A stretch of 36,346 bases of DNA from Vicinamibacterales bacterium (GTDB taxonomy: Bacteria > Acidobacteriota > Vicinamibacteria > Vicinamibacterales > 2-12-FULL-66-21): positions 1 to 36,346 of the forward strand of contig DASSPH010000095.1 in assembly GCA_035699745.1 (NCBI GenBank). Reading direction: 5' to 3'. Below the pieces are notes generated by a model. That model saw nothing but the letters and a program-made list of their open reading frames with translations. It did no database searches and was not told the origin of the DNA. Of the stretch, positions 1,111 to 21,249 are shown piece after piece (the stretch's first letter is position 1; each line of letters opens with the position of its first letter). The position numbers and the translations under genes are program-made.

Positions 1111-1180
1111 GGGATTCGCGATTCGCGATTCGCGATGCGGGATGCGGGATTCACGATTAGCGATCGGGGATTAGCGATCC
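1111..1180. repeat. Degenerate 7-bp tandem repeat (GGGATTC-like), about 10 units
   Basis: Ten consecutive heptamers run in phase from 1111: GGGATTC, two GCGATTC, GCGATGC, GGGATGC, GGGATTC, then ACGATTA, GCGATCG, GGGATTA and GCGATCC. The array fills most of the gap between two convergent genes and continues over the stop codon (1157-1159) and last codons of the minus-strand sulfatase-like gene, so it encodes that protein's final residues. It has no spacers, so it is not CRISPR. Similar short-period arrays lie at 14776-14817, 19114-19222 and 36141-36346. Confidence 0.85.
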
Positions 1181-3346
1181 GCGCGTGTACGCGCGTACGC
1201 GCGCAATGTCGGGCGCGAAGAACGCAGGCGGGGCCGTGTCGACGAACTGCCGGCCGTAGCGGACGGCGTCGTCGCGGCGGCCCGCGGCCGCCAGCTCGAA
1301 CCACAGGTTGTACAGCGCGTTGAACTGCGAGGCATCGAGCGCCACCGCGCGCTGCCAGGCGGCGATCGCGTCGGGCTTGCGGCCGGTCGTCGAGAGCACC
1401 ACGCCGAGCGTGGTATAGGCGTCCGCCAGCGCCGGATCGACCTCGATCGCCTTTCGCGCGTGCGCTTCCGCTTCCTGCAGCCGCGCGCCCCGTGCGGGTT
1501 CGACGCGCGTCGCCAGGGCCTCTCGCAGGACGATCGACGCGAGGTTCTGATAAGCGATGCCGTTGGTCGGATCCAGGGCGAGGATCTGCCGGAACGTGCG
1601 CAGCGCGTCGGCGGATCGGCCGGCATCGCCGTACGCGACGCCGAGTCCGTTCAGCGCTTCCACGTCCTCGGCAGACATCCCTTCGAGCAGCCGGATCGCC
1701 TTGCCGCTGTCGATGTGGCTCTCGGCGAGATAGATCCCGAGGCGGATCCGGATGTCGCGATCGGGCGCGCCGCTCGAGAGCCCCTTCTCGAGGACGGCAA
1801 TCGCCTGCCGCGGATCGCCCGCCTGCCAGAACGCGTAGGCGAGCGACATGTAGGCGTCTGCCGTATCCGGACGCCGCGCGATCACGCTCTCCAGCATCGC
1901 CACGGCCTCCTGCTGCCGCCCCGCCTGATTCAGTTCGGTGGCGCGATGCAGATCGCGATCGATCTCGACCAGCCGCTTCGGGTCGTCGGCCTCGCCGTAG
2001 GCCGCCTTCGCCGGCGCGCTCCCTTGCACGTAGCCGAGCGAGCGCAGCGCCGCCGCCGCCTCCGGCGTCTCACGCCCCGGGCGATCCGGGGGTGCCACGT
2101 TGAACGTCCGCAGCAGGTTGCTCAGCACCTGCACGCGCTCCCGCTGCGTCGCCGCGCCGTTCGACGACTCGCGCGGATCCGCGCCGAGATCGTACAGCTC
2201 GGGGATGGGCAGATCGATGTACTTCGTGCGTTCGCGCAGCACACCGCGCAGCGGCGCCCAGCCCCGCACGAGGTTGTACGTCATCGATTCGAAGTACGAC
2301 GGTCGATCGCCCGCCGTGCCCGCGATTGCCTCACGCAGCGACGCGCCGGCAAGTGACGGGTCCGGGTCGATCCCCAGCGCGTCGAGAACGGTGGGGACGA
2401 TGTCGATGTGGCGTACCGGCGTGCCGACGACGACACCTGCGGCCGCCGCGCCCGAGCGCGGATCGATCCGCGACACGATCAGCGGCACGCGCAAGGTCGG
2501 TTCGTAGGCGAACATGCCGTGGGTCAGCTCGCCGTGATCTCCGAGGCTCTCCCCGTGATCCGCGGTGACGATCACCAGTGTCGGGCGCGTGAGCGTGCGG
2601 AGCCGGTCCAGCAGCGGGCCGAGCGCCCGGTCGACGGCCGCCACCTCGCCGTAGTACGGCTGCGTCGAGTACGCGCCGGCGAGATCCTGCGGCGGACGGT
2701 ACGGCGAGTGCGGATCGAACACGTGGACCCATCCGAAGAACGGCGTCTGCTGCTGCGCAATCCACGCCGTGGCCCGTGACACCACGTCCGCCGCGGGACG
2801 CTCCGGCATCGAGATCTCGACCGCCCCGCGCGTCTCCGGCATCTGGTCGTCATAGATGTCGAACCCCGGCGTCAGGCCGAACCGCTTGGTCAGCGGAAAT
2901 CCGCCGACGAACGCACCGGTCGCAAACCCGCGCGCTTTCAACCGCGTCGCGAGCGTCGGCGTTCCGGCGCGCACGCGAAAGCCGCTGTTGTCGCGCATTC
3001 CGTGCTCGTAGGGAAGCAGACCGCTGAGGATCGAGGTATGCGAGGGCAGCGTGACCACCGCGTGCGCGTGCGCGAACGTGAAGCGCGCCCCTTCAGCGGC
3101 CAGCCGGTCCAGCGACGGCGACTGCGCCGGCCCGCCATAGGACGACAGGGCGTCGGCGCGCAGCGTATCGATCGTGATGAGGAGGACGTTCTGATCTGCG
3201 GTCGACGGCAGCGAGAACCGGTTCCCGCCGCTGCGCCAGGTCAGGATCGCCGCGCTGATTGCGACCACGACGGCCGCGACGATCAGCGGCGATCGGAGGA
3301 GTGACCGAGGCGCCGGAGACGAAGCGGATTTCTTCTGGGAGGCCAA
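1157..3346 (-). CDS. Sulfatase-like (alkaline phosphatase superfamily) membrane-anchored protein with C-terminal TPR repeats
   Basis: The 729-residue protein has a basic N-terminus and one membrane helix (about residues 19-37), then a sulfatase/alkaline-phosphatase-superfamily domain (about 52-420) and TPR repeats (about 465-700). Metal-site motifs are visible: ITIDTLRAD (Asp60) and TADHGES (Asp263, His264). The sulfatase signature C-x-P-x-R is replaced by TLPSH with Thr99 in the nucleophile position, so formylglycine-dependent sulfatase activity is doubtful; phospho-transferases of the same superfamily use Thr. The enzyme domain should lie in the periplasm. The start is TTG at 3346, the best candidate after an in-frame stop at 3353-3355; no clear ribosome-binding site precedes it. 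It lies 66 bp downstream of the sortase gene on the same strand. A paralogue with the same architecture is at 19229-21208. The substrate is unknown. Confidence 0.88.
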   Translation of the reverse strand: MASQKKSASSPAPRSLLRSPLIVAAVVVAISAAILTWRSGGNRFSLPSTADQNVLLITIDTLRADALSSYGGPAQSPSLDRLAAEGARFTFAHAHAVVTLPSHTSILSGLLPYEHGMRDNSGFRVRAGTPTLATRLKARGFATGAFVGGFPLTKRFGLTPGFDIYDDQMPETRGAVEISMPERPAADVVSRATAWIAQQQTPFFGWVHVFDPHSPYRPPQDLAGAYSTQPYYGEVAAVDRALGPLLDRLRTLTRPTLVIVTADHGESLGDHGELTHGMFAYEPTLRVPLIVSRIDPRSGAAAAGVVVGTPVRHIDIVPTVLDALGIDPDPSLAGASLREAIAGTAGDRPSYFESMTYNLVRGWAPLRGVLRERTKYIDLPIPELYDLGADPRESSNGAATQRERVQVLSNLLRTFNVAPPDRPGRETPEAAAALRSLGYVQGSAPAKAAYGEADDPKRLVEIDRDLHRATELNQAGRQQEAVAMLESVIARRPDTADAYMSLAYAFWQAGDPRQAIAVLEKGLSSGAPDRDIRIRLGIYLAESHIDSGKAIRLLEGMSAEDVEALNGLGVAYGDAGRSADALRTFRQILALDPTNGIAYQNLASIVLREALATRVEPARGARLQEAEAHARKAIEVDPALADAYTTLGVVLSTTGRKPDAIAAWQRAVALDASQFNALYNLWFELAAAGRRDDAVRYGRQFVDTAPPAFFAPDIARVRAYTRGSLIPDR

Positions 3347-3412: not shown

Positions 3413-4024
3413 TCACTGCGCGGCGGCGGCCGCACGCGACGGCGGCAGCAGTTCCGCATGCACGATGAATCGCTGCGGCGCGCTGCCGACGTAATCGAAC
3501 GGGTAGCAGGTCACCAGCGTCAACTGCGACAGCTGTCCCGAACGCAGCACCGACACCTCATCCGGTGAAACGATGCGGGTGGCGAATACGCGATAGCGAT
3601 GCACCCCCTCGGCCGTCGTCACCAGCACGGTGTCGTCCTTCTTGATCCCGGCGAGCGGACGGAAGAACGTGTCGCGGTGCGCCGCAAACGCCGCGTTTCC
3701 TGGTTCCCCGGGCAGCGCAGTGCCGGGGACGTGGCCGACCGATCCGCGCAGCGTGCGCACGTCCACCCCCTCGCGCGCGAGCGCCGACAATCGCAGCCGT
3801 GGAACCTCGATGCGGCCGACGACGGCACGTCTGGCGAGAGCGGGTGCGGTGGCTGCCGTGCTGCCGGACGGAGAGGAAGACGCGTCAGCCGCCGCGGCGC
3901 GCCTCGCGGCTTCGAGCTCGCGCGACAGCGCCGCCTGCTCGCGGGCGGCATGAATCTGTCCGGCGGCGAACCACGCCAACGCGGCGAGTGCGATCGCAAA
4001 CAGCAGGCGCTCGGCAGCCCGCAT
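3413..4024 (-). CDS. Class D-like sortase
   Basis: A 203-residue sortase. It has an N-terminal membrane helix (about residues 8-24), a short Ala-rich linker and the catalytic domain (about 68-192). All three active-site residues are visible: His116 in AAHRDTFFR, Cys173 in LVTCYPFD, and Arg185 in APQRFIV. The HRDTFFR and TCYPFD context resembles class D sortases rather than class A. Sortases cleave an LPxT-type motif and transfer the protein to an amine acceptor; an apparent substrate with LPRTAGELP is encoded two genes upstream. I chose the ATG at 4024, 19 bp after the VWA gene, because the helix follows at once; a longer open frame to 4153 overlaps the VWA gene and adds no recognisable sequence. 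In a presumed Gram-negative host the acceptor is unknown. Confidence 0.93.
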   Translation of the reverse strand: MRAAERLLFAIALAALAWFAAGQIHAAREQAALSRELEAARRAAAADASSSPSGSTAATAPALARRAVVGRIEVPRLRLSALAREGVDVRTLRGSVGHVPGTALPGEPGNAAFAAHRDTFFRPLAGIKKDDTVLVTTAEGVHRYRVFATRIVSPDEVSVLRSGQLSQLTLVTCYPFDYVGSAPQRFIVHAELLPPSRAAAAAQ

Positions 4025-4043
4025 CACCCGGTCGGCAGAGGCT

Positions 4044-4943
4044 CTAGACACCGCCGCCGTCCCCAGGCGCGATATACAGCGACCGCGCGCGAACGGCGAA
4101 CCTGTCGTACTGCCGGCCCTGCAGATCGACTTCGACTTTCCGTTTGAGCCCATCCGCGGCCGTTCGCGGCGGAACGTAGCCGATGGTGTAGCTGCTGCGG
4201 ATGTCGCGGGCGATGCGCTGCAGGGTGGGCGTAATCTCGCCGTTCGACTTCGGGAAGAACGATTCGCCGCCCGTCACCGACGCGAGCTGGCGCAGCAGCT
4301 GCGGCTTCGCTTCGCGATCGAGGCCATCGGCGAGGCAGATCGTGTAGATGACGACGTCGCGGCGCAGCGCGGCGTCGAGCACGTCCGCGAAGCGCGCGCG
4401 GCTGGCGTTGTCGCCGCCGTCGCTGACCAGCAGCAGGACCTTGCGCGCCTGCGTGCCGCGATCGAGATGCTGCAGCGCGGCGAGCAGGGCATCGAACAGC
4501 GCCGTCATGCCGCGCGCCATCGAGCGCGCCAGCGCGTCGCGGAGCACGCCATGGTCGCTGGTGAACGGCTGGTCCGGCGGGAGGCCGGGCCAGACTCGTT
4601 CGTTGAAGTTGATGGTGAACAATTCGTCCGCGGGATGACTCGACTCGGCGAATGCGAGTCCGGCGGCCCGAACGGCGTCGAGCCGCGGCACCATGCTGGT
4701 GCTGTTGTCGATGACCAGACCGACCGTCACCGGCGTGTCGTCCTGGTCGAACATGGTGATCGGTTGCACGCGGCCGTTCTCGCGTACGACGAACGCCTCG
4801 CGCGGCAGTCCGGGAACGAACCCGGCTCGCCGATCGAGGACGCTGACCTGCAGGACCACCAGGTCGGCGCGCGACGTGAACGTCGGCCGCGACCCGGGAT
4901 CCTGCGCGATCAAGACGCCAAGCAGCAGTGCGGCGAGGCGCAC
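4044..4943 (-). CDS. Secreted VWA-domain protein (VWFA-related Acidobacterial type) of the sortase cassette
   Basis: A 299-residue protein with a short hydrophobic N-terminal signal (about 1-13), the conserved N-terminal strand region of VWFA-related Acidobacterial proteins (VSVLDRR...FVPGL...FVVRENG) and a VWA domain. The metal-ion-dependent adhesion site is intact: DNSTS at residues 79-83, with a later LLLVSDGGDN. Such domains usually bind protein or matrix ligands through a divalent metal. The GTG start at 4943 is set by AGGAGGAG nine bases upstream, which overlaps the stop codon of the substrate gene, so the two are probably translationally coupled. The position between a sortase substrate and its sortase suggests a shared surface role. 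It carries no sorting signal itself. Confidence 0.9.
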   Translation of the reverse strand: MRLAALLLGVLIAQDPGSRPTFTSRADLVVLQVSVLDRRAGFVPGLPREAFVVRENGRVQPITMFDQDDTPVTVGLVIDNSTSMVPRLDAVRAAGLAFAESSHPADELFTINFNERVWPGLPPDQPFTSDHGVLRDALARSMARGMTALFDALLAALQHLDRGTQARKVLLLVSDGGDNASRARFADVLDAALRRDVVIYTICLADGLDREAKPQLLRQLASVTGGESFFPKSNGEITPTLQRIARDIRSSYTIGYVPPRTAADGLKRKVEVDLQGRQYDRFAVRARSLYIAPGDGGGV

Positions 4944-4952
4944 GGCGTGCGG

Positions 4953-4960
4953 CTCCTCCT
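4953..4960 (-). promoter_or_regulatory. Ribosome-binding site fixing the GTG start at 4943
   Basis: The minus strand reads AGGAGGAG, nine bases before GTG, and overlaps the upstream stop codon TAG (4959-4961). It supports a GTG start and coupling between the surface-protein and VWA genes. Confidence 0.75.
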
Positions 4961-5834
4961 AGACGGCCGCCTTCCGCGCCGCGCGGAGCGCGAAGGCGCC
5001 GGCGAACGCGGCCAGGCCGATCAGGCCGACCATCGGCAGTTCACCGGCCGTCCGCGGCAGCTCGCTCGGTTCGGAGCGGCCGGACGTGCCCGTCGGCTGA
5101 TCCGCCGTGGACGTCCGCGGCGCGGTCGTCGGCTCCGGCGTGGCGGCGGGCTGCGCGGTCACCGGCTGTGACGGCGGCTGCGAGGCCGTCGGCTCTGCCG
5201 GCGTCGTCGTCGGCTGCGACGTGGTCGTCGGCTGAGAGGCGGCCGGCGGCTGCGACGCCGGCTCCGTCGTCGGCTGCGACGTGGTGGTCGAGGCCGTGGA
5301 GCTCGTCGTGGCCGTCGAGGCCGTCGTGCTCGACTGCGGTTCCGCGTTGGCGGTCACGCGCTCGGGTGTGCCGGTCCACTTGGTGACGTCCGTGGACTCG
5401 GTGTCCATCGACATGACGCCCTCACCCGAGGCGCGCGCGATCGTCATCGCCTGCGATCGCGGATAGACGAACTCGTTGCCGGCGGTTTCGCCCGCGTAAT
5501 ACCAGTAGCGCAAAGCGGGCGGGACGTTCGACGGGGTTTCACGGAACGTGATCACCGGTTCCCCTTCGGGCTGGTTGCGCTCGGCGGGCACCGCCAGCAC
5601 GGTGGCGAAGAGCTGCGTCTGATCGCGATCGAAGATCTGCACGATGTGGCGGTCAGCGGGGGAGTCGGCCAGTCGGAACGTATAGGTGCCGGCCGGCAGC
5701 GTCTTGCCGGGAATGGAGACCGGACCGCTGAACGTCACGAACGTCATGCGGTCGGACGGCTGTGCCGCGGCGCTGGCGGCGCCGATCAGCAGGGTGGCGC
5801 ACGCCGCCGCGGTTATCGATGTGATTCGACCCAT
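4959..5834 (-). CDS. Surface protein with Ser/Thr/Pro-rich stalk and C-terminal LPRTA sortase signal
   Basis: A 291-residue precursor. It has a signal peptide (about 1-24, ending ASAAAQ), a compact N-terminal domain (about 28-160: a strand-rich segment with IPGKTLPAGTYTF and HIVQIFDRDQ, then WYYAGETAGNEFVYP), and a long stalk (about 164-257) in which over 40% of residues are Ser or Thr, with Pro, Gln and Ala. The end is a tripartite sorting signal: LPRTAGELP (259-267), a hydrophobic segment (268-284) and a basic tail RAARK. The N-terminal domain resembles short secreted proteins common in Acidobacteria, but I know no function for it. The ATG at 5834 follows AAGGAGG by seven bases; the frame is open further upstream but that part is not needed. 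It is the first gene of the substrate-VWA-sortase cassette. Confidence 0.92.
   Translation of the reverse strand: MGRITSITAAACATLLIGAASAAAQPSDRMTFVTFSGPVSIPGKTLPAGTYTFRLADSPADRHIVQIFDRDQTQLFATVLAVPAERNQPEGEPVITFRETPSNVPPALRYWYYAGETAGNEFVYPRSQAMTIARASGEGVMSMDTESTDVTKWTGTPERVTANAEPQSSTTASTATTSSTASTTTSQPTTEPASQPPAASQPTTTSQPTTTPAEPTASQPPSQPVTAQPAATPEPTTAPRTSTADQPTGTSGRSEPSELPRTAGELPMVGLIGLAAFAGAFALRAARKAAV
5130..5300. repeat. Imperfect minisatellite encoding the Ser/Thr/Pro stalk
   Basis: The stalk DNA is built of near-repeats of CGTCGTCGGCTGCGAC-like text. An exact 20-bp match occurs at 5206-5225 and 5266-5285, 60 bp apart and therefore in frame. Copy changes here would alter stalk length without breaking the protein. 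Confidence 0.7.
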
Positions 5835-5940
5835 CAGTAATCCTCCTTGCGTTTCATCGCACTCGTGTCGCTGATGGAGTTGCACGCTGCGTGCCGGTGG
5901 GTTGCCGTGCAGCGCGGCGGCGGCACATCATTACGGCTCG
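5835..5940. other. Divergent intergenic region between surface-protein and TMTC-like genes
   Basis: This 106-bp gap must hold promoters for both the sortase cassette (minus) and the glycosyltransferase gene (plus). I see the ribosome-binding site at 5842-5848 but no convincing -35/-10 pair on either strand. Confidence 0.5.
5842..5848 (-). promoter_or_regulatory. Ribosome-binding site of the surface-protein gene
   Basis: The minus strand reads AAGGAGG, seven bases before the ATG at 5834. It decides the start against the longer open frame that reaches 5885. Confidence 0.8.
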
Positions 5941-7881
5941 ATGGCGAAGCGGAAGAGCTCGCAGGCAGTCTTCTCCCGGCCCGTTCCGGCGGGTTCTCGC
6001 GGCACGGCGCCGCACCGCCTGCTCGTGTACGTCGCGCTCGTCGTCATCAACCTGGTCATCTACGCGAACGTCGGCCGGTTCGAGCTCGTCAACTGGGACG
6101 ACCCGACGTACATCACGGAGAACCCGACCGTTCTGCGCGGGCTCAACTGGAGCACGGCCTGGTGGGCGCTCACGACGGGGCATTCACCGTATTGGCATCC
6201 GCTGACCTGGCTGTCGCATCTGCTCGACGTCAGCCTGTTCGGCACGAATCCCGGTCCGTATCACGTCGTGAGCCTGATCCTTCACGCCGCCAACACGCTG
6301 CTGCTGTTCGAGCTGCTTCGTCGCGCCACCGGCGCGCCGGGCCGCAGCGCCTTCGTGGCGGCGGCGTTTGCCGCGCACCCGCTCCACGTCGAATCAGTCG
6401 CGTGGGTGACCGAGCGCAAGGACGTGCTCAGCACGTTGTTCCTGCTGCTCACCACGCTCGCGTACGTCGGCTACGTTCGCCGGCCGTCGCTGGCGCGCTA
6501 CACGGGCGTGATGGCGCTGTTCGCCTGCGCCCTCATGTCGAAACCGATGGTCGTGACGCTCCCGCTGGTGCTGCTGCTGCTGGACGTGTGGCCGCTCGGC
6601 CGCACCAACGCGCGCAGGTTGATCGTCGAGAAGGTGCCGCTCCTGGCGCTGGCCATCGCGACCAGCATCACCACGGTCGCGATCCAGGCGCGCGTCGGCG
6701 CGATGGCCGGTCTGGATGCCTTGCCGCTGTCCACGCGGCTCGGCAACGCCGCGATCGGCTACCTCGCGTACGTGTGGAAGACCGTCTGGCCCTGGCCGAT
6801 GGCGGCGTTCTATCCGCTCTTCGAGCTCTCTCCGCTCCGCGTCGGCGCTGCGCTCGCGGCGCTCCTTGCCGTCAGCTACGCGACGTACCGCGTCCGGCGC
6901 CAGCATCCGTACGTCTGGGTGGGCTGGTGCTGGTATGTCGTCACGATCACGCCGGTCGTCGGATTCCTGCAGGCAGGCGAGCAGGGAATCGCCGACCGGT
7001 TCACCTACGTGCCGATGATCGGACTCGCCATCGCGGCTGCCTGGGGAGCGCCGCCGCTGGTGAACCGGATCCGCTCGCACACGCGGGCGCTGCCCGCCGC
7101 CGCGGCCGTCCTCGTGGTGGTCTGGACCATCGCCGCCCGCGCGCAGGCCGCGCACTGGGAGAACAGCCTCACGCTCTGGGAGCACGCGGCGCGCGTGACG
7201 CCGCGGAGCTACATCGCGCACGAAAACCTCGGCCAGGCGTTGCGCGAACGCGGCCGTCTCCACGAGGCGCTCGCCAGCTACGAGCGGGCGCTCGCACTGG
7301 CGCCGGCGCATTCCCCCGGATACGTCGCCGTCATCAACAACAGCATCGGGCTGGTGCTCGCGCGGCAGGGACGGACCGCCGAGGCGCGGCAGCGGTTCGC
7401 GGCTGCGGTGCTGAGCGATCGGGCGTTCGCGGAAGCGCGCTCCAATCTGGGGAACGCGCTGGCCGCCGAAGGGCACGCCAACGAGGCCATCGAGCATTAT
7501 CGCGAGGCGATCCGGCTGAAGCCGGACTCCGTGGAGCCGCGCGTGGGACTCGGCGCTGCGCTGCTGCGCACCGGCCGCGCCGCCGAGGCGGCGGTGCAGT
7601 ACCGCGATGCCATCGCGCTCGACGCGACGCTGGCGCAGGCCCACAACGGCCTGGGCGGCGCGCTGGCGACGCAGGGAGACGATGAGGGCGCGCTGCGGGA
7701 ATACCGCGAAGCGCTGCGGCTGGATCCGCGGCTGCCGACGGCGCATCACAACCTGGCGCTGCTGTATCTGAAGCGGGCGGATCTTGCGCAGGCGCGGCGG
7801 CATCTCGAGGCGGCGCTGTCGGCCGATCCCGGGTACGAGCCGGCGCGGCGGGCGCTGCTCGCGATCGACGCGCGGCGCTGA
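5941..7881 (+). CDS. TMTC-like membrane glycosyltransferase with C-terminal TPR repeats
   Basis: A 646-residue polytopic protein. Residues 1-25 are basic and cytosolic. About ten hydrophobic segments follow (27-400), then TPR repeats (about 424-640). The first extracytoplasmic loop carries NWDDPTY (51-57), the acidic pair typical of GT-C lipid-phosphate-sugar glycosyltransferases. HPLHVESVAWVTERKDVLS (146-164) matches the block shared with TMTC O-mannosyltransferases. It would use a polyprenyl-phosphate sugar and act on the outer face of the inner membrane; donor and acceptor are unknown. I chose the ATG at 5941 because basic residues and the first helix follow; a TTG at 5902 would add 13 residues. 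No strong ribosome-binding site is visible. It faces the sortase cassette across 106 bp, and its stop lies three bases from the convergent VWA gene. Confidence 0.88.
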   Translation: MAKRKSSQAVFSRPVPAGSRGTAPHRLLVYVALVVINLVIYANVGRFELVNWDDPTYITENPTVLRGLNWSTAWWALTTGHSPYWHPLTWLSHLLDVSLFGTNPGPYHVVSLILHAANTLLLFELLRRATGAPGRSAFVAAAFAAHPLHVESVAWVTERKDVLSTLFLLLTTLAYVGYVRRPSLARYTGVMALFACALMSKPMVVTLPLVLLLLDVWPLGRTNARRLIVEKVPLLALAIATSITTVAIQARVGAMAGLDALPLSTRLGNAAIGYLAYVWKTVWPWPMAAFYPLFELSPLRVGAALAALLAVSYATYRVRRQHPYVWVGWCWYVVTITPVVGFLQAGEQGIADRFTYVPMIGLAIAAAWGAPPLVNRIRSHTRALPAAAAVLVVVWTIAARAQAAHWENSLTLWEHAARVTPRSYIAHENLGQALRERGRLHEALASYERALALAPAHSPGYVAVINNSIGLVLARQGRTAEARQRFAAAVLSDRAFAEARSNLGNALAAEGHANEAIEHYREAIRLKPDSVEPRVGLGAALLRTGRAAEAAVQYRDAIALDATLAQAHNGLGGALATQGDDEGALREYREALRLDPRLPTAHHNLALLYLKRADLAQARRHLEAALSADPGYEPARRALLAIDARR

Positions 7882-7884
7882 GCG

Positions 7885-8823
7885 CTACTGCGGCGGGAAG
7901 CCGCTCGCGTGCGCCTTGACGTTGGGCAGCATCGTGCCGACCTGGATCAACTGCGGCACCTTGTTCGACTCGGGGCGCTTGTAGACGATCTCGTACTGTC
8001 CGGCGAGCGCGTCGGCGTAGCGCTGCATGATGCCGGCGACCGCGGAGATGCCCACCACGAAGTCGCGCCGGCCGCCGGTCACCTTGGCGAAATCGTTGAT
8101 CACGAGATCGCGCTTCGAGTTCTTCAGTCCGCCGCGCTGCACCGACACCGACCAGAGCTGCGCGCCGGATGCGCGGAACGACTCGACGATCTTCTTCGGC
8201 TCTTCCCGGCTCTGCTCGTTGCTCGGCTCGAGGTTGAGGGACACGATCGCGCGCCGGGTGCTCGGGCGGCGCGTCAGCTCGCTGTTCGCCGCGGCGATCG
8301 CTTCCAGCAGCACGGAGCCCACGCCCGGCTTGGCGGTCAGCCGGTTCACCCCTTTGTCGAACTCCAGCGCGTGCTGCGTGAACGGCACCACCGGAATTGC
8401 CGCCTGTCCGAACTCCATCAGCATCACCGACGCGTCCGGACTGCGTGACAGCAGCTGCTTCGCGAACGCCGACACCGCGACGCGGATGTCGCGCACGTAC
8501 TCTTCCGGCGTGCCGTAGGCATCGGTGACCCGCCGGCCCTGGGCGGTGTCGACCAGCACGACGACGGAGATTGGCTGGCTCGCCGGCTTGATCGCGACGA
8601 TCTCCCGATCCTGGCCGTCTTCGCGAATCAGCAGATCCCCCATGCGGACGTCGGGCACCGGCCGTCCGTCGGCGTCGAGAATCGAGAGGAACAGGGACTT
8701 GTCCGAGACGCTTGCCTTTGCCGCCTGCGCATGCGTTTCGGTTACGGCGGCACGCGCGGGGAGGAATGCCAGGGCGAGCAGCGCGGCGAAGATCGGCCGG
8801 CGGCGTCGGACGTGTGCAGTCAT
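7885..8823 (-). CDS. Secreted VWA-like protein with degenerate metal site
   Basis: A 312-residue protein with a basic n-region and signal peptide (about 1-34), a strand region (SILDADGRPVPDVRMGDLLIREDG) and a VWA-like fold. The expected DxSxS metal motif reads DTAQG (92-96), so metal-dependent ligand binding by the canonical site is unlikely. Later blocks (RAIVSLNLEPSNE, AGQYEIVYKRP) match the C-terminal part of the VWFA-related Acidobacterial family. It is a paralogue of the product of 18235-19113, with the same length class and the same degenerate motif. The ATG overlaps the TGA of the upstream glycosyltransferase gene as TGATG, and GGAGG lies six bases before it, so translation is probably coupled. 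Confidence 0.87.
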   Translation of the reverse strand: MTAHVRRRRPIFAALLALAFLPARAAVTETHAQAAKASVSDKSLFLSILDADGRPVPDVRMGDLLIREDGQDREIVAIKPASQPISVVVLVDTAQGRRVTDAYGTPEEYVRDIRVAVSAFAKQLLSRSPDASVMLMEFGQAAIPVVPFTQHALEFDKGVNRLTAKPGVGSVLLEAIAAANSELTRRPSTRRAIVSLNLEPSNEQSREEPKKIVESFRASGAQLWSVSVQRGGLKNSKRDLVINDFAKVTGGRRDFVVGISAVAGIMQRYADALAGQYEIVYKRPESNKVPQLIQVGTMLPNVKAHASGFPPQ

Positions 8824-14819: not shown

Positions 14820-16049
14820 TTACTTGGTGAACCCCCAGATCGCTTCCTGCGGCGGCAGCTTCACGGCCGCGTAGCCCTTGCGCGCCCTCACCGTGACCCC
14901 AGGCACGTCCGTCCTGACCTCGATCCGCCGCAGCTTGCCGTCCATCGTGGCATTCTCCGGCTGATAGCCGATGACGTAGTAAGTGCTGGTGTCGCGGATG
15001 ATGCGGCCGAACGCCAGCGACACGTCGTCGATGTTGCGGATCATGAAGCCGCCGGTGTTGGCGGTGAGAATGTTGGGGCCGTCTTCGCCGGTGTCGAACG
15101 CCGCCGAGCGGGCTGCCGACTGCGACAACACGTCGGGGTTGGCGCCGAGGCCGTTGATCAACCCGCGGCCGTCGATCGAATAGATCGTGATGCCGCTGCG
15201 CGCCGCCTGGGCGGCGACCGTCTCGATCGTGCTGCGGACATCCTGGACGAAGAAGCCTTCGCTCAGCAGGACGACGGTCTTCCGGCCGGGCATCTTGGCG
15301 AGGCCGCGCGCGACGGTCTCCAGGTTCTGCACCGTGCGCGCCGTCATCATGCGCGCCTGCCGGATGTAGAGCCTGGCCTTCTGCTGCACCAGGTTCTCGA
15401 CGTTGCCGGCGCCCCCTTCGCCCGTGCACGCCACCGCGTCGTCCTGGCACGCCTGCGCGGCGAGCGCGCGCGTCACCTCGCGCGCCCCTTCCGCGATGCG
15501 CAGCGCGTCGACCTCACTCGGGATGCGCGGCCATTCGCGGAACGGCGCCAGGATGCCCTGGCGGTTCTCGAACGCCGGCTGCACGGCGCGCAGCCCGGCG
15601 AGCAGCTCTCCCTTGTCGACGGTCAGCCGCCCCTTGTACATGCCGCCGTTGACGAAAATGCCCGCGGCGTCCCCTTCGCGGAACATCTCCCGGACGAACT
15701 TCTCCGCGCCGACCTTCACGCGCATCAGCGAGTCGTTGGCGAGATGCGTCTCGTCGAAGAGCAGCACGAACACCCGGTGCGCGCTGTATTGCGCCTGTTC
15801 CGCGTACTCGCTGGCGACCGATCCCTCGCGCAGCCCGAGGTCGTGCGTCACCATGAAGAACTGCTGGATCTTCTGCGGCTTTCCGTTCTCGTAGAGCGTG
15901 ATGTTGCCCGGCTTCAGGCCCGGCACGAAGTTGCCCTGCCTGTCGAGCACGATCGCGTCGACTTCGACCAGCGCGGTGGTCGATTTGAACGTCGCCTGGC
16001 CCTGGAAGAGCGCGAGGCCGCACAGGAGGAGCGTCGCCATCCGTATCAT
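14820..16049 (-). CDS. Secreted VWFA-related Acidobacterial domain protein
   Basis: A 409-residue protein with a signal peptide (about 1-19), the family's strand region (VEVDAIVLDRQGNFVPGL...ITLYENGKPQKIQQF) and a VWA-type domain. The metal motif position reads DETHL (99-103) in VFVLLFDETHL, so the DxSxS site is not conserved. Later blocks are typical of this family: MPGRKTVVLLSEGF, GITIYSIDGRG, STYYVIGYQPEN and VRARKGYAAV. Two Cys residues (about 205 and 212) flank an insertion with QACQDDAVACTGEGG and could form a disulfide. The ATG at 16049 overlaps the preceding VWA gene's TGA by 4 bp (ATGA). It is the last gene of the TPR-VWA-VWA operon. Its function is unknown beyond presumed protein-protein interaction in the envelope. 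Confidence 0.92.
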   Translation of the reverse strand: MIRMATLLLCGLALFQGQATFKSTTALVEVDAIVLDRQGNFVPGLKPGNITLYENGKPQKIQQFFMVTHDLGLREGSVASEYAEQAQYSAHRVFVLLFDETHLANDSLMRVKVGAEKFVREMFREGDAAGIFVNGGMYKGRLTVDKGELLAGLRAVQPAFENRQGILAPFREWPRIPSEVDALRIAEGAREVTRALAAQACQDDAVACTGEGGAGNVENLVQQKARLYIRQARMMTARTVQNLETVARGLAKMPGRKTVVLLSEGFFVQDVRSTIETVAAQAARSGITIYSIDGRGLINGLGANPDVLSQSAARSAAFDTGEDGPNILTANTGGFMIRNIDDVSLAFGRIIRDTSTYYVIGYQPENATMDGKLRRIEVRTDVPGVTVRARKGYAAVKLPPQEAIWGFTK

Positions 16050-17038
16050 TTCGTGGCTCCGAGCTGATTACCGGGTGAGCCGATTCTACTGCGTCCCATG
16101 TACCCCTTGCGCGCGCGGATCTCGAAGCCGCCGCGCTTCCGCACCGATACCGACAGCTCGTGCCAGCCCTCGTCGCCGACTCCTTCGGCGATGTACTGCA
16201 GCACGTAGCTGGCGCGGAAATCCTCGAGCGTCGCCTTGAAGACGCGGCTGATCGACTCGCCGGTGCCGAGCGGAATGACGACGCCGCCGGTCGGCGCGAC
16301 GAGCCGCGCGAGCGCCGTCGGCACGCCGTCCGGACCGACCTCCATGCCGCGGCCGCTGAACGTGACGTTGCCCGCGCCGGCCAGCGAATCGAGGGTGTTG
16401 CGCTGCGCGAGGCGCCGCGACGCGCTCGCTTCGGCGGCTTCCACGGGCACGACGATGCTGACGACGGCGTCGGTGCGGCGCGCGATCTCGAGCGCAACCT
16501 TCTGGTCGACGATGCTCGTCGAGTCGCGGCCGTCGGTGAAGGTGACGATCAGCTGCCGTCGGCCGGCATCGGCGGGACGCATCATCGCCGCGGCCATGCC
16601 GTCATAGAGCGAGGTCGCGCCTTCTGCGCGCAGGCCGTCGAGCGCCATCGCCGCCGATTTCGGCTGGAACGGAAACACTTCCTGCAGCACCTGTGAGATC
16701 GCGACGAGACGGATGCGGTCGTCGGCTCGCAGCAGGCCGGCGGTGTCGGCGACCGCCTTCTTGATGCGCTGCAGCTGCGGGCCGTCGACGCTGCTGCTCA
16801 GATCGAGGAGCAGGGTGAGATCGAGCGGCACCTTCTCCGCGGCGAGCGAGGAGATCTTCTGGGGCACGCCGTTGTCGGTGAGCTGGAAATCGGCCGCCGT
16901 CAGCCCCGCGACCGGTCTGTTTCCCTGCCGCACCGAGACGACGACGGTGATGCCCTCGACGCCCGAGCGGAAGACCTGCTGGTGCCAGGCGGATGCGGAG
17001 GCGAGGGCGAGGACCGCGGCGGCGGCGAGCCGCGTCAT
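16046..17038 (-). CDS. Secreted VWA-domain protein with intact metal site
   Basis: A 330-residue protein with a signal peptide (about 1-17), the N-terminal strand region (VVVSVRQGNRPVAGLTAADFQLTDNG) and a VWA domain with a canonical metal-ion-dependent adhesion site, DLSSS (79-83), plus the third-loop Asp in VTFTDGRDS. It ends with the family's ASYVLQYI and IRARKGYMGR blocks. Of the three VWA proteins in this neighbourhood (14820-19113), only this one keeps the metal motif. I chose the ATG at 17038 because it begins the signal peptide and overlaps the upstream TPR gene's TGA by 4 bp; a longer frame to 17116 would overlap that gene more deeply without benefit. It is the middle gene of a three-gene operon. 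Confidence 0.92.
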   Translation of the reverse strand: MTRLAAAAVLALASASAWHQQVFRSGVEGITVVVSVRQGNRPVAGLTAADFQLTDNGVPQKISSLAAEKVPLDLTLLLDLSSSVDGPQLQRIKKAVADTAGLLRADDRIRLVAISQVLQEVFPFQPKSAAMALDGLRAEGATSLYDGMAAAMMRPADAGRRQLIVTFTDGRDSTSIVDQKVALEIARRTDAVVSIVVPVEAAEASASRRLAQRNTLDSLAGAGNVTFSGRGMEVGPDGVPTALARLVAPTGGVVIPLGTGESISRVFKATLEDFRASYVLQYIAEGVGDEGWHELSVSVRKRGGFEIRARKGYMGRSRIGSPGNQLGATK

Positions 17039-18234: not shown

Positions 18235-19113
18235 ATGAACGCTCACGTCGTCCGTTCCGGCATGCTTGCGGCCGCTGCTCTGTGCCTCCTCACCCCCACC
18301 TTCGCCTCGTCGCCGCAGGGGCAGCAGAAGACGGCGCTGGTCACGGTGGTCGCCGAGGCATCGGGTCCGATGCGCGATCTGACCGCCAAGGACTTCATCG
18401 TCACGGAGGACGGTCAGAAGCGCGAGGTGGTCAGCGCCGCGCTGGCGGAGGAGCCGCTGTCGATCGCGCTGCTCGTCGACTCGACCCAGCCGCAGCCGGG
18501 CGCGATGCCGCCGACTCAGGATCTGCGGAATGCGCTCGCCGCGTTCGTCAAGGCCGTGCAGTCGCAGAGCCCCGGGGCGCAGATCGCGCTGTCGGAGTTC
18601 GGCGGCGCGTCGGTGCCGAGGGTGCCGTTCGGCGGCAAACCGGGCGATCTCGAGGCGGCGATCGGCCGGCTGTATCCGAACCAGCAGGTCCACGCGGTGC
18701 TGCTCGAGGCGCTGGTCGACGCGGGCAAGCTCCTGGCGGGACAGCCGGCGCCGCGGCGCGCGATCGTGTCAGTGGACTTCAACTCGCGCGAAGGCAGCGC
18801 GGAACGGTCGATGAAGGCGGCGGCGGAAGCGGTCCACAACGCGGGCGCGACGCTGTGGACCGTCTCGGTTCGCGGCAGCGTCGTCAGCACGCCGATCCGC
18901 GAAGAGGTGCTGAACAAGATCATCCAGGCGAACGGCGGCCTGCGTCTGATGCCCGTGGATGCGAGCGGCCTCGAGGCGAACCTGAAGATCATCGCGCACA
19001 GCCTGGCGTCGCAGTACACGGTGTCGTTCATGCGCACCGGCGGCAATCCGAAGACGACCACGTTCGAGACGACGCGCGGCGCGAAGGTTCAGAAGACGCC
19101 GTGGATGCGATAG
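18235..19113 (+). CDS. Secreted VWA-like protein with degenerate metal site
   Basis: A 292-residue protein with a signal peptide (about 1-25), the strand region (VTVVAEASGPMRDLTAKDFIVTEDGQKREV) and a VWA-like domain whose metal motif reads DSTQP (82-86) instead of DxSxS. Later blocks (RRAIVSVDFNSREG, ATLWTVSVRG, ASQYTVSFMRTGG) parallel the product of 7885-8823 closely enough to call them paralogues. The ATG at 18235 follows AAGGAGG by six bases. It faces the TPR-VWA-VWA operon across 129 bp, so the four genes may be co-regulated from one divergent region. The stop is followed at once by a 7-bp repeat array. Confidence 0.9.
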   Translation: MNAHVVRSGMLAAAALCLLTPTFASSPQGQQKTALVTVVAEASGPMRDLTAKDFIVTEDGQKREVVSAALAEEPLSIALLVDSTQPQPGAMPPTQDLRNALAAFVKAVQSQSPGAQIALSEFGGASVPRVPFGGKPGDLEAAIGRLYPNQQVHAVLLEALVDAGKLLAGQPAPRRAIVSVDFNSREGSAERSMKAAAEAVHNAGATLWTVSVRGSVVSTPIREEVLNKIIQANGGLRLMPVDASGLEANLKIIAHSLASQYTVSFMRTGGNPKTTTFETTRGAKVQKTPWMR

Positions 19114-19228: not shown

Positions 19229-21208
19229 TCACCGTATCGCCCGCAGGTTGTCTGCCGCGTTGGGGTCGCCGAGGGCGGCGGCGCGCTTCCATTCTTCGAT
19301 CGCTTCGGCCTTGCGGCCGGTGCGGGCGAGGAGGACGCCCAGGGCGGTGTGGGCGGCGGGGAGGTTGGGGTCGAGCTGGAGGGCGCGGCGCAGCGAGGCC
19401 TCGGCGCCGCGGAGATCGCGCGCCTGGATCTGCGCCACGCCCATGTTCTCGAACGCCGACGCATTGTCGGGCGCGATCTGCGCCAGGCGCGTGTAGGTGC
19501 GCACCGCGTCGGCGTTCCGGTTGGCGAGCGTATACGCGTTGCCGAGCACCAGCAGCGCGTCGGGATCGTCGCCGGCGTCCTTCTCGAGCAGGGCGATCGC
19601 CTTGCCGGGCGCACCGGATTCCGCGAGGTACTGCGACAGGCGGATCCGCACCTCCGGCTGCGTCACGCCGTTGCGCAGCGCGGTCTCGAGCGTTTCAACC
19701 GCAAGGGCGCGACGCCCGGTCCGCCAATACACGAGCGCGAGCTTCCGGTAGGCGTCCTCGGTGTCCGGCCGCTTTTCGATGATGGTGCGGAACGCCGCGA
19801 TGGCTTCGTCGGCCCGGCCGAGGCGGATCGCGTCGTTGCCGCGCGTGAGGAGCTGCTCGATCTCGACCAGCCGCTTCGGATCGTCGGCCTCGGTGTAGCG
19901 TTCGCGCACGGCAGCGGACGCGCCGCCGATGTAGCCGAGCGAGCGCAGCCGCTCGATGGTGTCCGCCGTCTCCTGGCGCGCGCGCGCCGGGGGCGCGACG
20001 TTGAACTGCTTCAACGTTTCGACCATGACCCGCGCGCGATCCGCGCGGCGCGACGCCACGTTCGCCGCCTCCTGCGGATCCGTGGCGAGATCGTACAGCT
20101 CGACGATCGGCAGATCGATGTACTTCTCGCGTCCCACCAGCACGCCGCGCAGCGGCGCCCAGCCGCGCGTCACCGCCGCGCTCATCGCCTCGAAGTAGGA
20201 GGGCCGGTCCTCGCCGCGCCCGTTGGCGATGGCGTCGAGCAGGGACGTGCCGGACGTGTCCGCCGCAGGCGCGCCGGCCGAGCCGGCGATCGTCGGCAGC
20301 AGATCGACATGGCGCACGGGCGTCGAGATCACCCTGCCGCGCACCTTTGCGTCCGGCTGCGCCGGATCGATCTCGCCGACGATCAGCGGGACCCTGAGCG
20401 TCGGCTCGTAGGCAAAGAGGCTGTGCGTGCGCTCGCCGTGCTCCCCCAGGCTCTCGCCGTGATCGGACGTGACCACGACGAGGGTCGGACGGGACAGGGC
20501 ACGCAGACGGCCGAACAGCGGCCCGAGCGCGGCATCGGTCCACGCGACTTCGCCGCCGTAGGCGTCCGGGCCGATGCCTGACGCGTAGACGCCCGGCGGC
20601 TCGTACGGCTCGTGCGGATCGTAGACGTGGACCCACGCGAACCATTTCCCGGACTGCGCGCCGATCCACGTCAGCGCCGATTTCACCACGTCGTCGGCGC
20701 GACGCTCGCGATCGGTGATCTCGCCGGTGGGCCCGGTGCGCGTCATCCGATCGTCGTAGACGTCGAATCCGGACGTGAGCCCGAAGCGCCGGTCGAGCGG
20801 GAAGCCGCCGACGAACGCGCCGGTCGCGAAGCCGCGCCCCTTCAGCAGCGTCGCCGCCGTGGGCTGGCGGCCATCCAGGCGATAGCCGGTGTTGTCGCGG
20901 ATGCCGTGTTCGTAGGGATAGCGCCCGGTCAGGATGCTCGCGTGCGACACCAGCGTGACGACCGCGTGCGCGTGCGCGAACTCGAACCGCGCGCCGCGGG
21001 CCGCGAGCGCGTCGAGGTTCGGCGTCGGCGCGCGGCCGCCGTACGCGCCCACCGCATCCGCGCGCAGCGTGTCGATCGTGACCAGCAGGATGTTGCGCTC
21101 GGGGTTGGGGAGGACCCGGAAGGATCGGCCGCCGAGCAACGCGCAGGCCGCGAGCGCCGCCAGCGCGCCGGCGGAGACCAGTGTGGCCACGGATCGCACG
21201 GGGAACAC
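19229..21208 (-). CDS. Sulfatase-like lipoprotein with C-terminal TPR repeats
   Basis: A 659-residue paralogue of the product of 1157-3346. The N-terminus is a lipoprotein-type signal with lipobox LAAC (Cys22), so it is probably lipid-anchored rather than held by a helix. The alkaline-phosphatase-superfamily domain (about 38-410) shows VTIDTLRAD (Asp46) and TSDHGES (Asp249, His250). The catalytic signature reads TLVSH (85-89), which lacks the Cys/Ser, Pro and Arg of true sulfatases; Thr85 sits in the nucleophile position. TPR repeats cover about 440-650. The GTG at 21208 follows GGAGG by seven bases; the much longer open frame upstream overlaps the S9 peptidase gene antisense-free but out of frame and is spurious. 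It is the third gene after the PPIase and peptidase, 41 bp downstream of the latter. Confidence 0.88.
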   Translation of the reverse strand: MFPVRSVATLVSAGALAALAACALLGGRSFRVLPNPERNILLVTIDTLRADAVGAYGGRAPTPNLDALAARGARFEFAHAHAVVTLVSHASILTGRYPYEHGIRDNTGYRLDGRQPTAATLLKGRGFATGAFVGGFPLDRRFGLTSGFDVYDDRMTRTGPTGEITDRERRADDVVKSALTWIGAQSGKWFAWVHVYDPHEPYEPPGVYASGIGPDAYGGEVAWTDAALGPLFGRLRALSRPTLVVVTSDHGESLGEHGERTHSLFAYEPTLRVPLIVGEIDPAQPDAKVRGRVISTPVRHVDLLPTIAGSAGAPAADTSGTSLLDAIANGRGEDRPSYFEAMSAAVTRGWAPLRGVLVGREKYIDLPIVELYDLATDPQEAANVASRRADRARVMVETLKQFNVAPPARARQETADTIERLRSLGYIGGASAAVRERYTEADDPKRLVEIEQLLTRGNDAIRLGRADEAIAAFRTIIEKRPDTEDAYRKLALVYWRTGRRALAVETLETALRNGVTQPEVRIRLSQYLAESGAPGKAIALLEKDAGDDPDALLVLGNAYTLANRNADAVRTYTRLAQIAPDNASAFENMGVAQIQARDLRGAEASLRRALQLDPNLPAAHTALGVLLARTGRKAEAIEEWKRAAALGDPNAADNLRAIR

Positions 21209-21215
21209 GGGTCGT

Positions 21216-21220
21216 CCTCC
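21216..21220 (-). promoter_or_regulatory. Ribosome-binding site fixing the GTG start at 21208
   Basis: The minus strand reads TTGGAGGACGACCC before GTG, so GGAGG lies seven bases from the start. It decides the start of the lipoprotein sulfatase-like gene within a much longer open frame. Confidence 0.75.
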
Positions 21221-21249
21221 AACGCGGATCGGACGCTGCGGCTGCCGTA

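Follow-up and report, generated by a model that had tools for sequence, protein, structure and literature searches.

The sortase cassette

The window analysed here is a stretch of 36,346 nucleotides from a Vicinamibacterales bacterium of the Acidobacteriota (assembly GCA_035699745.1, contig DASSPH010000095.1), and it carries a cassette of three minus-strand genes that runs from 5834 to 3413 in the order substrate, VWA protein, sortase. The gene positions, the LPRTA tail of the substrate, the DNSTS site of the VWA protein and the catalytic residues of the sortase, as given in an initial annotation of this DNA, were confirmed in the sequence and in alignments. The same holds for the overlap between the ribosome-binding site of the VWA gene and the stop codon of the substrate gene, where the minus strand reads GTC TAG GAGGAG...GTG. 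The features are:

4959..5834, minus strand: sortase substrate of 291 amino acids, with a signal-peptide-like start, a beta domain, a Ser/Thr/Pro/Gln-rich linker and an LPRTA sorting signal
5397..5756, minus strand: N-terminal domain of the substrate, approximately residues 27-146, for which an all-beta structure closed by a helix is predicted (profile match 5397-5753; AlphaFold2)
5457..5468, minus strand: VYPR, a pilin-motif-like site, Lys in most tailed relatives (sequence; relatives)
5061..5396, minus strand: linker of about 111 residues, 90% P/T/S/A/Q/E/V (composition)
4962..5060, minus strand: sorting signal, consisting of LPRTA (5046-5060, residue 259), a hydrophobic segment and the basic end RAARKAAV (tail-profile match 4965-5060)
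4953..4960, minus strand: AGGAGGAG, which overlaps the TAG stop of the substrate gene and is the ribosome-binding site of the VWA gene (sequence)
4044..4943, minus strand: VWA protein of 299 amino acids, with a GTG start, a signal-peptide-like start and a TIGR03436 domain (177.3 bits, cut-off 81.25)
4695..4709, minus strand: DNSTS metal-site motif of the VWA domain (sequence)
3413..4024, minus strand: sortase of 203 amino acids with a hydrophobic N-terminus, class D-like (profile scores, tree, alignment)
3677..3679, minus strand: catalytic His116 of the sortase (alignment)
3506..3508, minus strand: catalytic Cys173 of the sortase (alignment)
3470..3472, minus strand: catalytic Arg185 of the sortase (alignment)

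The substrate displays the three marks of an LPXTG-type sorted protein, namely an LPxT motif, a hydrophobic segment and a basic end. Of 67 available tails, 40 went into a tail profile, and 16 fragments into a domain profile. Built without its own row, from the 39 other tails, the tail profile still recovered the tail of our substrate at 39.4 bits (E 1.4e-11), and the runner-up among the 501 open reading frames of the window scored E 0.33; the domain profile, likewise without its own row, recovered the beta domain at 158.5 bits. With Pfam PF00746, six of 18 aligned members reached E 0.01 and our substrate fell short of it. Among 66 distinct tails, 44 have LPxTA, and 22 have G in place of A.

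The enzyme and its target form an exclusive pair in this genome, in line with the self-contained, one-substrate cassette that the initial annotation described. PF04203 gave a single match, hence one sortase, and a search with the tail profile, which admitted E values as high as 10 and scored 150 of 179 candidates, returned our tail at 1e-11, followed by three partial matches at 3.6 or above.

No Pfam family scored over its cut-off on the N-terminal domain of the substrate; DUF2911 (PF11138) gave 17.8 bits against a cut-off of 27. AlphaFold2 modelled the domain as all-beta with a closing helix, at a mean predicted local distance difference test score (pLDDT) of 86.6. When this model was compared with the PDB by Foldseek, no match had E<=0.001, and a second comparison with VIA-align gave a best Z of 2.9. 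We name no fold, and the missing PDB match is no proof that the fold is new. The domain also occurs without a tail, in sortase-bearing as well as sortase-free genomes.

At the C-terminal end of the beta domain, relatives show a conserved W...G.EFVYPK stretch. By the sorting of our script, Lys occupies the VYPK site in 87 of 104 tailed versus 7 of 24 untailed proteins; after correction, in which four mis-sorted rows were moved and one cut row was dropped, the figures were 90 of 108 versus 4 of 19 (p 2e-7, kinship ignored). Among the 104 tailed proteins, the site is Arg in ten (our substrate and nine others) and another residue in seven. Since our protein and nine others have Arg there, the sequences argue against a general catalytic need for this Lys. 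With its VYPR, our substrate lacks the linking lysine of sortase pilins, and its mature form contains two lysines only (44 and 152), neither of them at this site.

The sortase and its class

Membership in PF04203 (101.1 bits, cut-off 26.6, E 4.6e-29) and TIGR01076 (70.9 bits, cut-off 39.35) identified the enzyme as a sortase. His116, Cys173 and Arg185 are invariant in 13 aligned sortases, our own included; among 185 aligned rows, His is kept in at least 184 and Cys in 184, and Arg in each of the 157 rows listed. The active site, TLVTCYPF, is shared with class D, and the two top-scoring class-specific models are those of class D (127.5 and 114.1 bits), for which LPRTA is a signal of the expected LPxTA type. 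The class GN model TIGR03784 yielded 89.8 bits against a cut-off of 158.25, and class C 64.9 against 160. The best PDB sequence match was 2ln7 (residues 69-192 aligned, E 1.4e-17), which we take to be the class D SrtC acting on LPNTA.

In a tree of 104 sortase sequences, the class GN members formed a separate branch of 21 rows (support 100/99). Our sortase fell into the other half, whose 71 rows comprise three-gene loci, two-gene loci and loci with other substrates; 16 of these rows, ours included, carry the VWA gene. Scores and tree together support placing our sortase closer to class D than to GN, so the class D-like label proposed at the outset may be retained. One sortase branch (99/91) comprises nine loci whose small substrates are of another type; PG_binding_1 is present in all three that were run against Pfam, which fits a wall location.

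The VWA protein

The residues D79, S81, T147 and D175 of the VWA protein are invariant in 13 aligned sequences, our own included, and a D-x-S-x-S/T motif is found in at least 63 of 71 VWA rows, three rows being gapped at the motif. The model of the protein reached a mean pLDDT of 86.7. No match to a VIT domain was found in it, and no anchor of its own is visible.

In the phylogenetic analysis, 66 rows (our protein, others located beside a sortase, and L250) clustered with one outsider, itself from a sortase-bearing genome, in a clade with a support of 98/99. The first tree used paralogues from our own genome alone; 16 non-cassette VWA proteins were added afterwards because some in sortase-free genomes score as high as the weaker cassette members. 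The comparison set outside the clade thereby comprised 15 other high-scoring VWA proteins and 14 own paralogues. The cassette rows were chosen by similarity to our VWA protein, which favours a clade, and in the search across genomes the five best first-look candidates of most genomes were scored, so that the counts are lower bounds. Judged from this tree, the cassette VWA proteins are a supported subfamily tied to the cassette, which backs the original inclusion of the VWA gene in it. At locus L250, a VWA gene of the clade immediately follows a beta-domain gene without a tail, and the only sortase of that genome is on a different contig; such adjacency away from the sortase suggests that beta domain and VWA protein are partners.

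Four further TIGR03436-type VWA genes are located near the cassette, at 14868-15992, 16100-16975, 7960-8694 and 18340-19038, two of them over and two under the cut-off.

Distribution among the Acidobacteriota

A sortase of either kind was found in 80 of 396 sampled Acidobacteriota genomes, with 106 matches in total: our own, two fragments of genome G137, which were left out, and the 103 loci used. The tail profile (E<=0.001) matched 59 genomes, all of them within the 80, so that the tail occurs in 59 of 80 sortase-bearing and 0 of 316 sortase-free genomes (p 7e-53); in most genomes the 20 best first-look candidates were scored, and the tail counts are therefore lower bounds. Exactly one tail is present in 47 of the 59 genomes and two to four in the other 12. 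One tail per genome thus appears common, and true of our genome, yet not universal. Some tailed proteins of sortase-bearing genomes (L269-L282) lie on other contigs or several kb from the sortase, and some of these distant ones bear other cargo, such as DUF4142 (L273) or a weak PEGA match (L269).

A motif filter detected a tailed protein on the same strand within 3 kb at 76 of the 103 loci. The filter had been relaxed for long basic ends and still missed L170 (LPKTD), L189, L203 and L280. Twelve further loci, in the class GN branch, adjoin a gene for a large protein whose end is a variant, LPQGGT for example, and at L032 the profile search found a tail at the contig end. By all routes, 89 of the 103 loci have a tail and 14 have none nearby (L033, L045, L054, L064, L069, L076, L081, L082, L089, L091, L092, L099, L115 and L132); five of the latter (L045, L054, L069, L091 and L092) lie less than 750 bases from a contig end, and L064 has the beta domain without the tail. 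In G404, a genome of our own family, a tailed protein adjoins one of two sortases, and the profile found none near the other.

Among the named matches, figures refer to the best 80 of 506 confirmed stretches, so that other phyla may have matches too; the titles of all 80 are acidobacterial. On the same strand and within 3 kb, our scripts found a tail at 69 of these loci, the VWA gene at 55, the beta domain at 68 and all three at 49. Three more tails were recognized by eye, giving 72 of 80; of the eight loci left, L174 shows no tail and the other seven have less than 1.8 kb of sequence upstream. Either all three genes or their two-gene core can be found again across the phylum.

By the refuting conditions that the initial annotation set, these counts speak in part against a dedicated pair: it holds for our genome and does not extend to the 12 genomes with two to four tails or to the 14 loci without a neighbouring one. 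The three genes co-occur at 49 named loci; in the phylum sample, the VWA gene was present at only 15 of 103 fetched loci.

In 13 wide-gap loci (L143, L144, L149, L153, L154, L161, L171, L175, L179, L198, L199, L202 and L218), a homologous gene of about 600 amino acids is located between the substrate gene and the VWA or sortase gene. Eight of them are titled Bryobacterales or Bryobacteraceae, and in the one scanned (L143) the gene encodes a malic enzyme.

Proposed function and alternatives

We regard it as moderately probable that the cassette is a dedicated protein-anchoring operon, in which the class D-like sortase joins the substrate to the meso-diaminopimelate (m-Dap) of peptidoglycan, where it serves as a receptor for the VWA protein. 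To judge from its start, the substrate would be exported by Sec; its C-terminal segment would keep it in the inner membrane with the beta domain in the periplasm. There, the sortase, tethered by its hydrophobic N-terminus, would cut LPRTA between Thr and Ala, form a thioester between the Thr and Cys173 and pass the substrate to an amine, the likeliest acceptor being, by analogy, the m-Dap side chain of lipid II or peptidoglycan. What results would be a wall-anchored beta domain at the end of a disordered tether some 110 residues long. Most likely, the VWA protein would then bind the beta domain via its metal site, giving a wall-fixed, VWA-bearing complex. These features point to the periplasmic side of the inner membrane as the place of processing, and not to the surface location initially assumed. 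We propose m-Dap as acceptor because the class D SrtC uses m-Dpm (PMC3297441, PMC3208642).

This reading builds on the gene content, the motifs, one sortase with one tail, the phylum-wide co-occurrence and the cassette-tied VWA subfamily, and several points weigh against it. Our sortase stays under both class D cut-offs (NF033746, 114.1 against 165; NF058671, 127.5 against 140), and of seven non-GN relatives scanned, two pass NF058671 and none passes NF033746. On the sortase tree the three-gene label changes eight times, at least three of these changes being forced by supported branches, and within our own family a sortase is present in only 2 of 12 genomes. TIGR03436 has 42 matches in the host genome, 28 of them over the cut-off, and VWA proteins of sortase-free genomes can equal the weaker cassette members in score; most loci of the phylum sample have no VWA gene, so anchoring does not need it. 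Furthermore, acidobacterial peptidoglycan is assumed to contain m-Dap, on which a literature search yielded no usable statement among the entries listed, and cleavage, covalent attachment, the m-Dap acceptor, binding of the beta domain to the VWA protein and the final location are steps that we infer.

As an unlikely alternative, the sortase could work as a protease that passes the protein to water or a small amine and in this way releases it into the periplasm or for export. Sortases are transpeptidases, the His/Cys/Arg site is intact here, and the linker and the PG_binding_1 substrates of the sister branch suit wall attachment better; in favour of release, the acceptor is so far hypothetical, and C-terminal processing by other enzymes, such as rhombosortase, is described for diderms (PMC3237569). 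Attachment to another envelope amine (a lipid, a glycan or an outer-membrane protein), which would yield a true surface protein, seems to us less probable still. The acceptor had been left open in the initial annotation, and the host does have an outer membrane: because its genome has eight Omp85 matches, we judge it to be a two-membrane bacterium, as the presumed Gram-negative state had implied, even though LptD (PF04453), the marker sought first, gave no match in the genome. The hydrophobic N-terminus, however, suggests an inner-membrane sortase, the cassette offers no route across the outer membrane, and its flanking genes recur at few other sortase loci.

Pilus-like polymerisation, in which the Thr of one subunit would be joined to the VYPK Lys of the next in a one-subunit fibre, is rather improbable. 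The W...G.EFVYPK stretch resembles the Gram-positive pilin motif WXXXVXVYPKN (PMC5536039), and Lys is enriched at the site in tailed proteins, but of the 19 untailed proteins, 7 are too short to reach the site, so that the contrast may reflect an extra C-terminal helix and not linkage. Arg or other residues replace the Lys in several tailed relatives, no class C score exceeded its cut-off, and with VYPR and its lysines elsewhere our protein itself disfavours the polymerising function once considered for it. A more speculative idea, to which we give little credence, is that the small sortase cassettes of Acidobacteriota are interchangeable units for covalent display within a two-membrane envelope, whose class D-like sortases and single type of tail serve a changing cargo (for example the beta domain, PG_binding_1 or DUF4142). 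The beta-domain protein with VYPK would then be a minimal pilin, polymerised into a wall-bound fibre with a VWA partner, and our VYPR copy a non-polymerising, anchored form. Least credible of all, and largely refuted by the data, is the initial suggestion that a class GN target was divided between two genes. Both systems pair a sortase with a VWA domain, and class GN is a known dedicated Gram-negative pair (PMC3237569), but our sortase stays far below the GN cut-off, which the three GN-branch sortases scanned pass with 203-212 bits, and lies outside their branch. Our VWA protein belongs to TIGR03436 without a VIT match, and most other loci lack such a VWA gene. Because class GN cassettes, with their VIT-VWA targets, occupy a distinct sortase branch within the same phylum, the "split" is an analogy and not descent.

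Genome context and neighbouring genes

The host genome comprises 6.3 Mb in 110 contigs and is given as 100% complete and 1.47% contaminated. A promoter scan found none. Two sulfatase-TPR proteins are encoded on the minus strand, at 1157-3346 and 19229-22270 (the second judged by eye); the former gene begins 67 bases past the sortase stop and may be co-transcribed. Divergent from the cassette, on the plus strand at 5902-7881, a membrane protein with a PMT_2 mannosyltransferase domain and TPRs adjoins the substrate gene with its long Ser/Thr-rich linker. When these and other flanking genes were sought at the 103 sortase loci, the sulfatase-TPR protein was matched at only three (117, 38 and 30 bits) and the mannosyltransferase-TPR protein at four, with at most 56 bits and with its N-terminal part at none. 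O-mannosylation of the linker was dropped as an idea because of these weak and few matches.

Comparison with known systems

To our knowledge, class GN is the sole dedicated sortase kind named for Gram-negatives, and sortase anchoring has been studied almost only in single-membrane bacteria. Dedicated Gram-negative pairs are thus already known; the present cassette belongs to a second, class D-like and VWA-accompanied kind that recurs in the Acidobacteriota, with a clean one-enzyme, one-substrate genome. In a cultured member, the acceptor that a sortase uses in a Gram-negative envelope would be open to direct test, and among the very numerous VWA proteins of acidobacteria one subfamily gains a specific setting. 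In the titles and abstract openings listed, subscription papers being outside reach, we found nothing on Acidobacteriota sortases or on this kind, and no paper on VWFA-related proteins of acidobacteria; in PMC3174227, a sortase is a row in a gene-count table for Solibacter.

Class GN, the known dedicated Gram-negative pair, has a VIT-VWA LPXTG target (PMC3237569). In our sample the targets were VIT-VWA proteins in the three loci scanned by Pfam (L074, L107 and L097) and, by eye or pattern, in others; the three GN-branch sortases scanned scored over the GN cut-off. Like our cassette, class GN combines a Gram-negative dedicated sortase with an adjacent target and involves a VWA domain, and it also occurs in this phylum. 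Unlike it, our sortase lies on a separate branch, two separate genes encode substrate and VWA domain, the VWA protein is of TIGR03436 without a VIT match, and the sorted domain is a different one, with neither a VIT nor a VWA match. Beside GN-branch sortases (L097, L101, L113, L116, L118, L119, L122, L126, L127, L129, L131 and L134), neighbouring proteins have ends such as LPQGGT, LGQGGT or TTGTA instead of LPxT[AG], which suggests a changed cleavage motif.

Closer to our enzyme is class D (NF033746, NF058671), to which SrtC is assigned (PMC3208642); SrtC cuts LPNTA after Thr, with meso-diaminopimelic acid (m-Dpm) as acceptor (PMC3297441). Class D provides the best-scoring models and shares the LPxTA-type signal and the TLVTCYPF active site, whereas our sortase scores below both cut-offs, belongs to a host with an outer membrane and is accompanied by one substrate of the same operon and a VWA gene. 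With the sortase pili of class C, the cassette has in common a sortase, an LPxT tail and, in most relatives, a VYPK-like motif whose Lys is the linking residue in Gram-positive pilins (PMC5536039). It differs in its own VYPR, its single small domain and a class C score below the cut-off, and no tip or base pilus genes were seen in the cassette.

Rhombosortase/GlyGly-CTERM and exosortase/PEP-CTERM systems resemble it in having tails of motif, helix and basic end that are processed in diderm envelopes, with adjacent genes where there is one target (PMC3237569), but their enzymes are unrelated to the cysteine sortase used here. Finally, Braun's lipoprotein and outer-membrane proteins are joined to m-Dap by L,D-transpeptidases (PMC8263019). 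The product proposed for our cassette would likewise be a protein on peptidoglycan m-Dap in a diderm, made by another enzyme from a substrate without a visible lipobox and joined by its new C-terminus.

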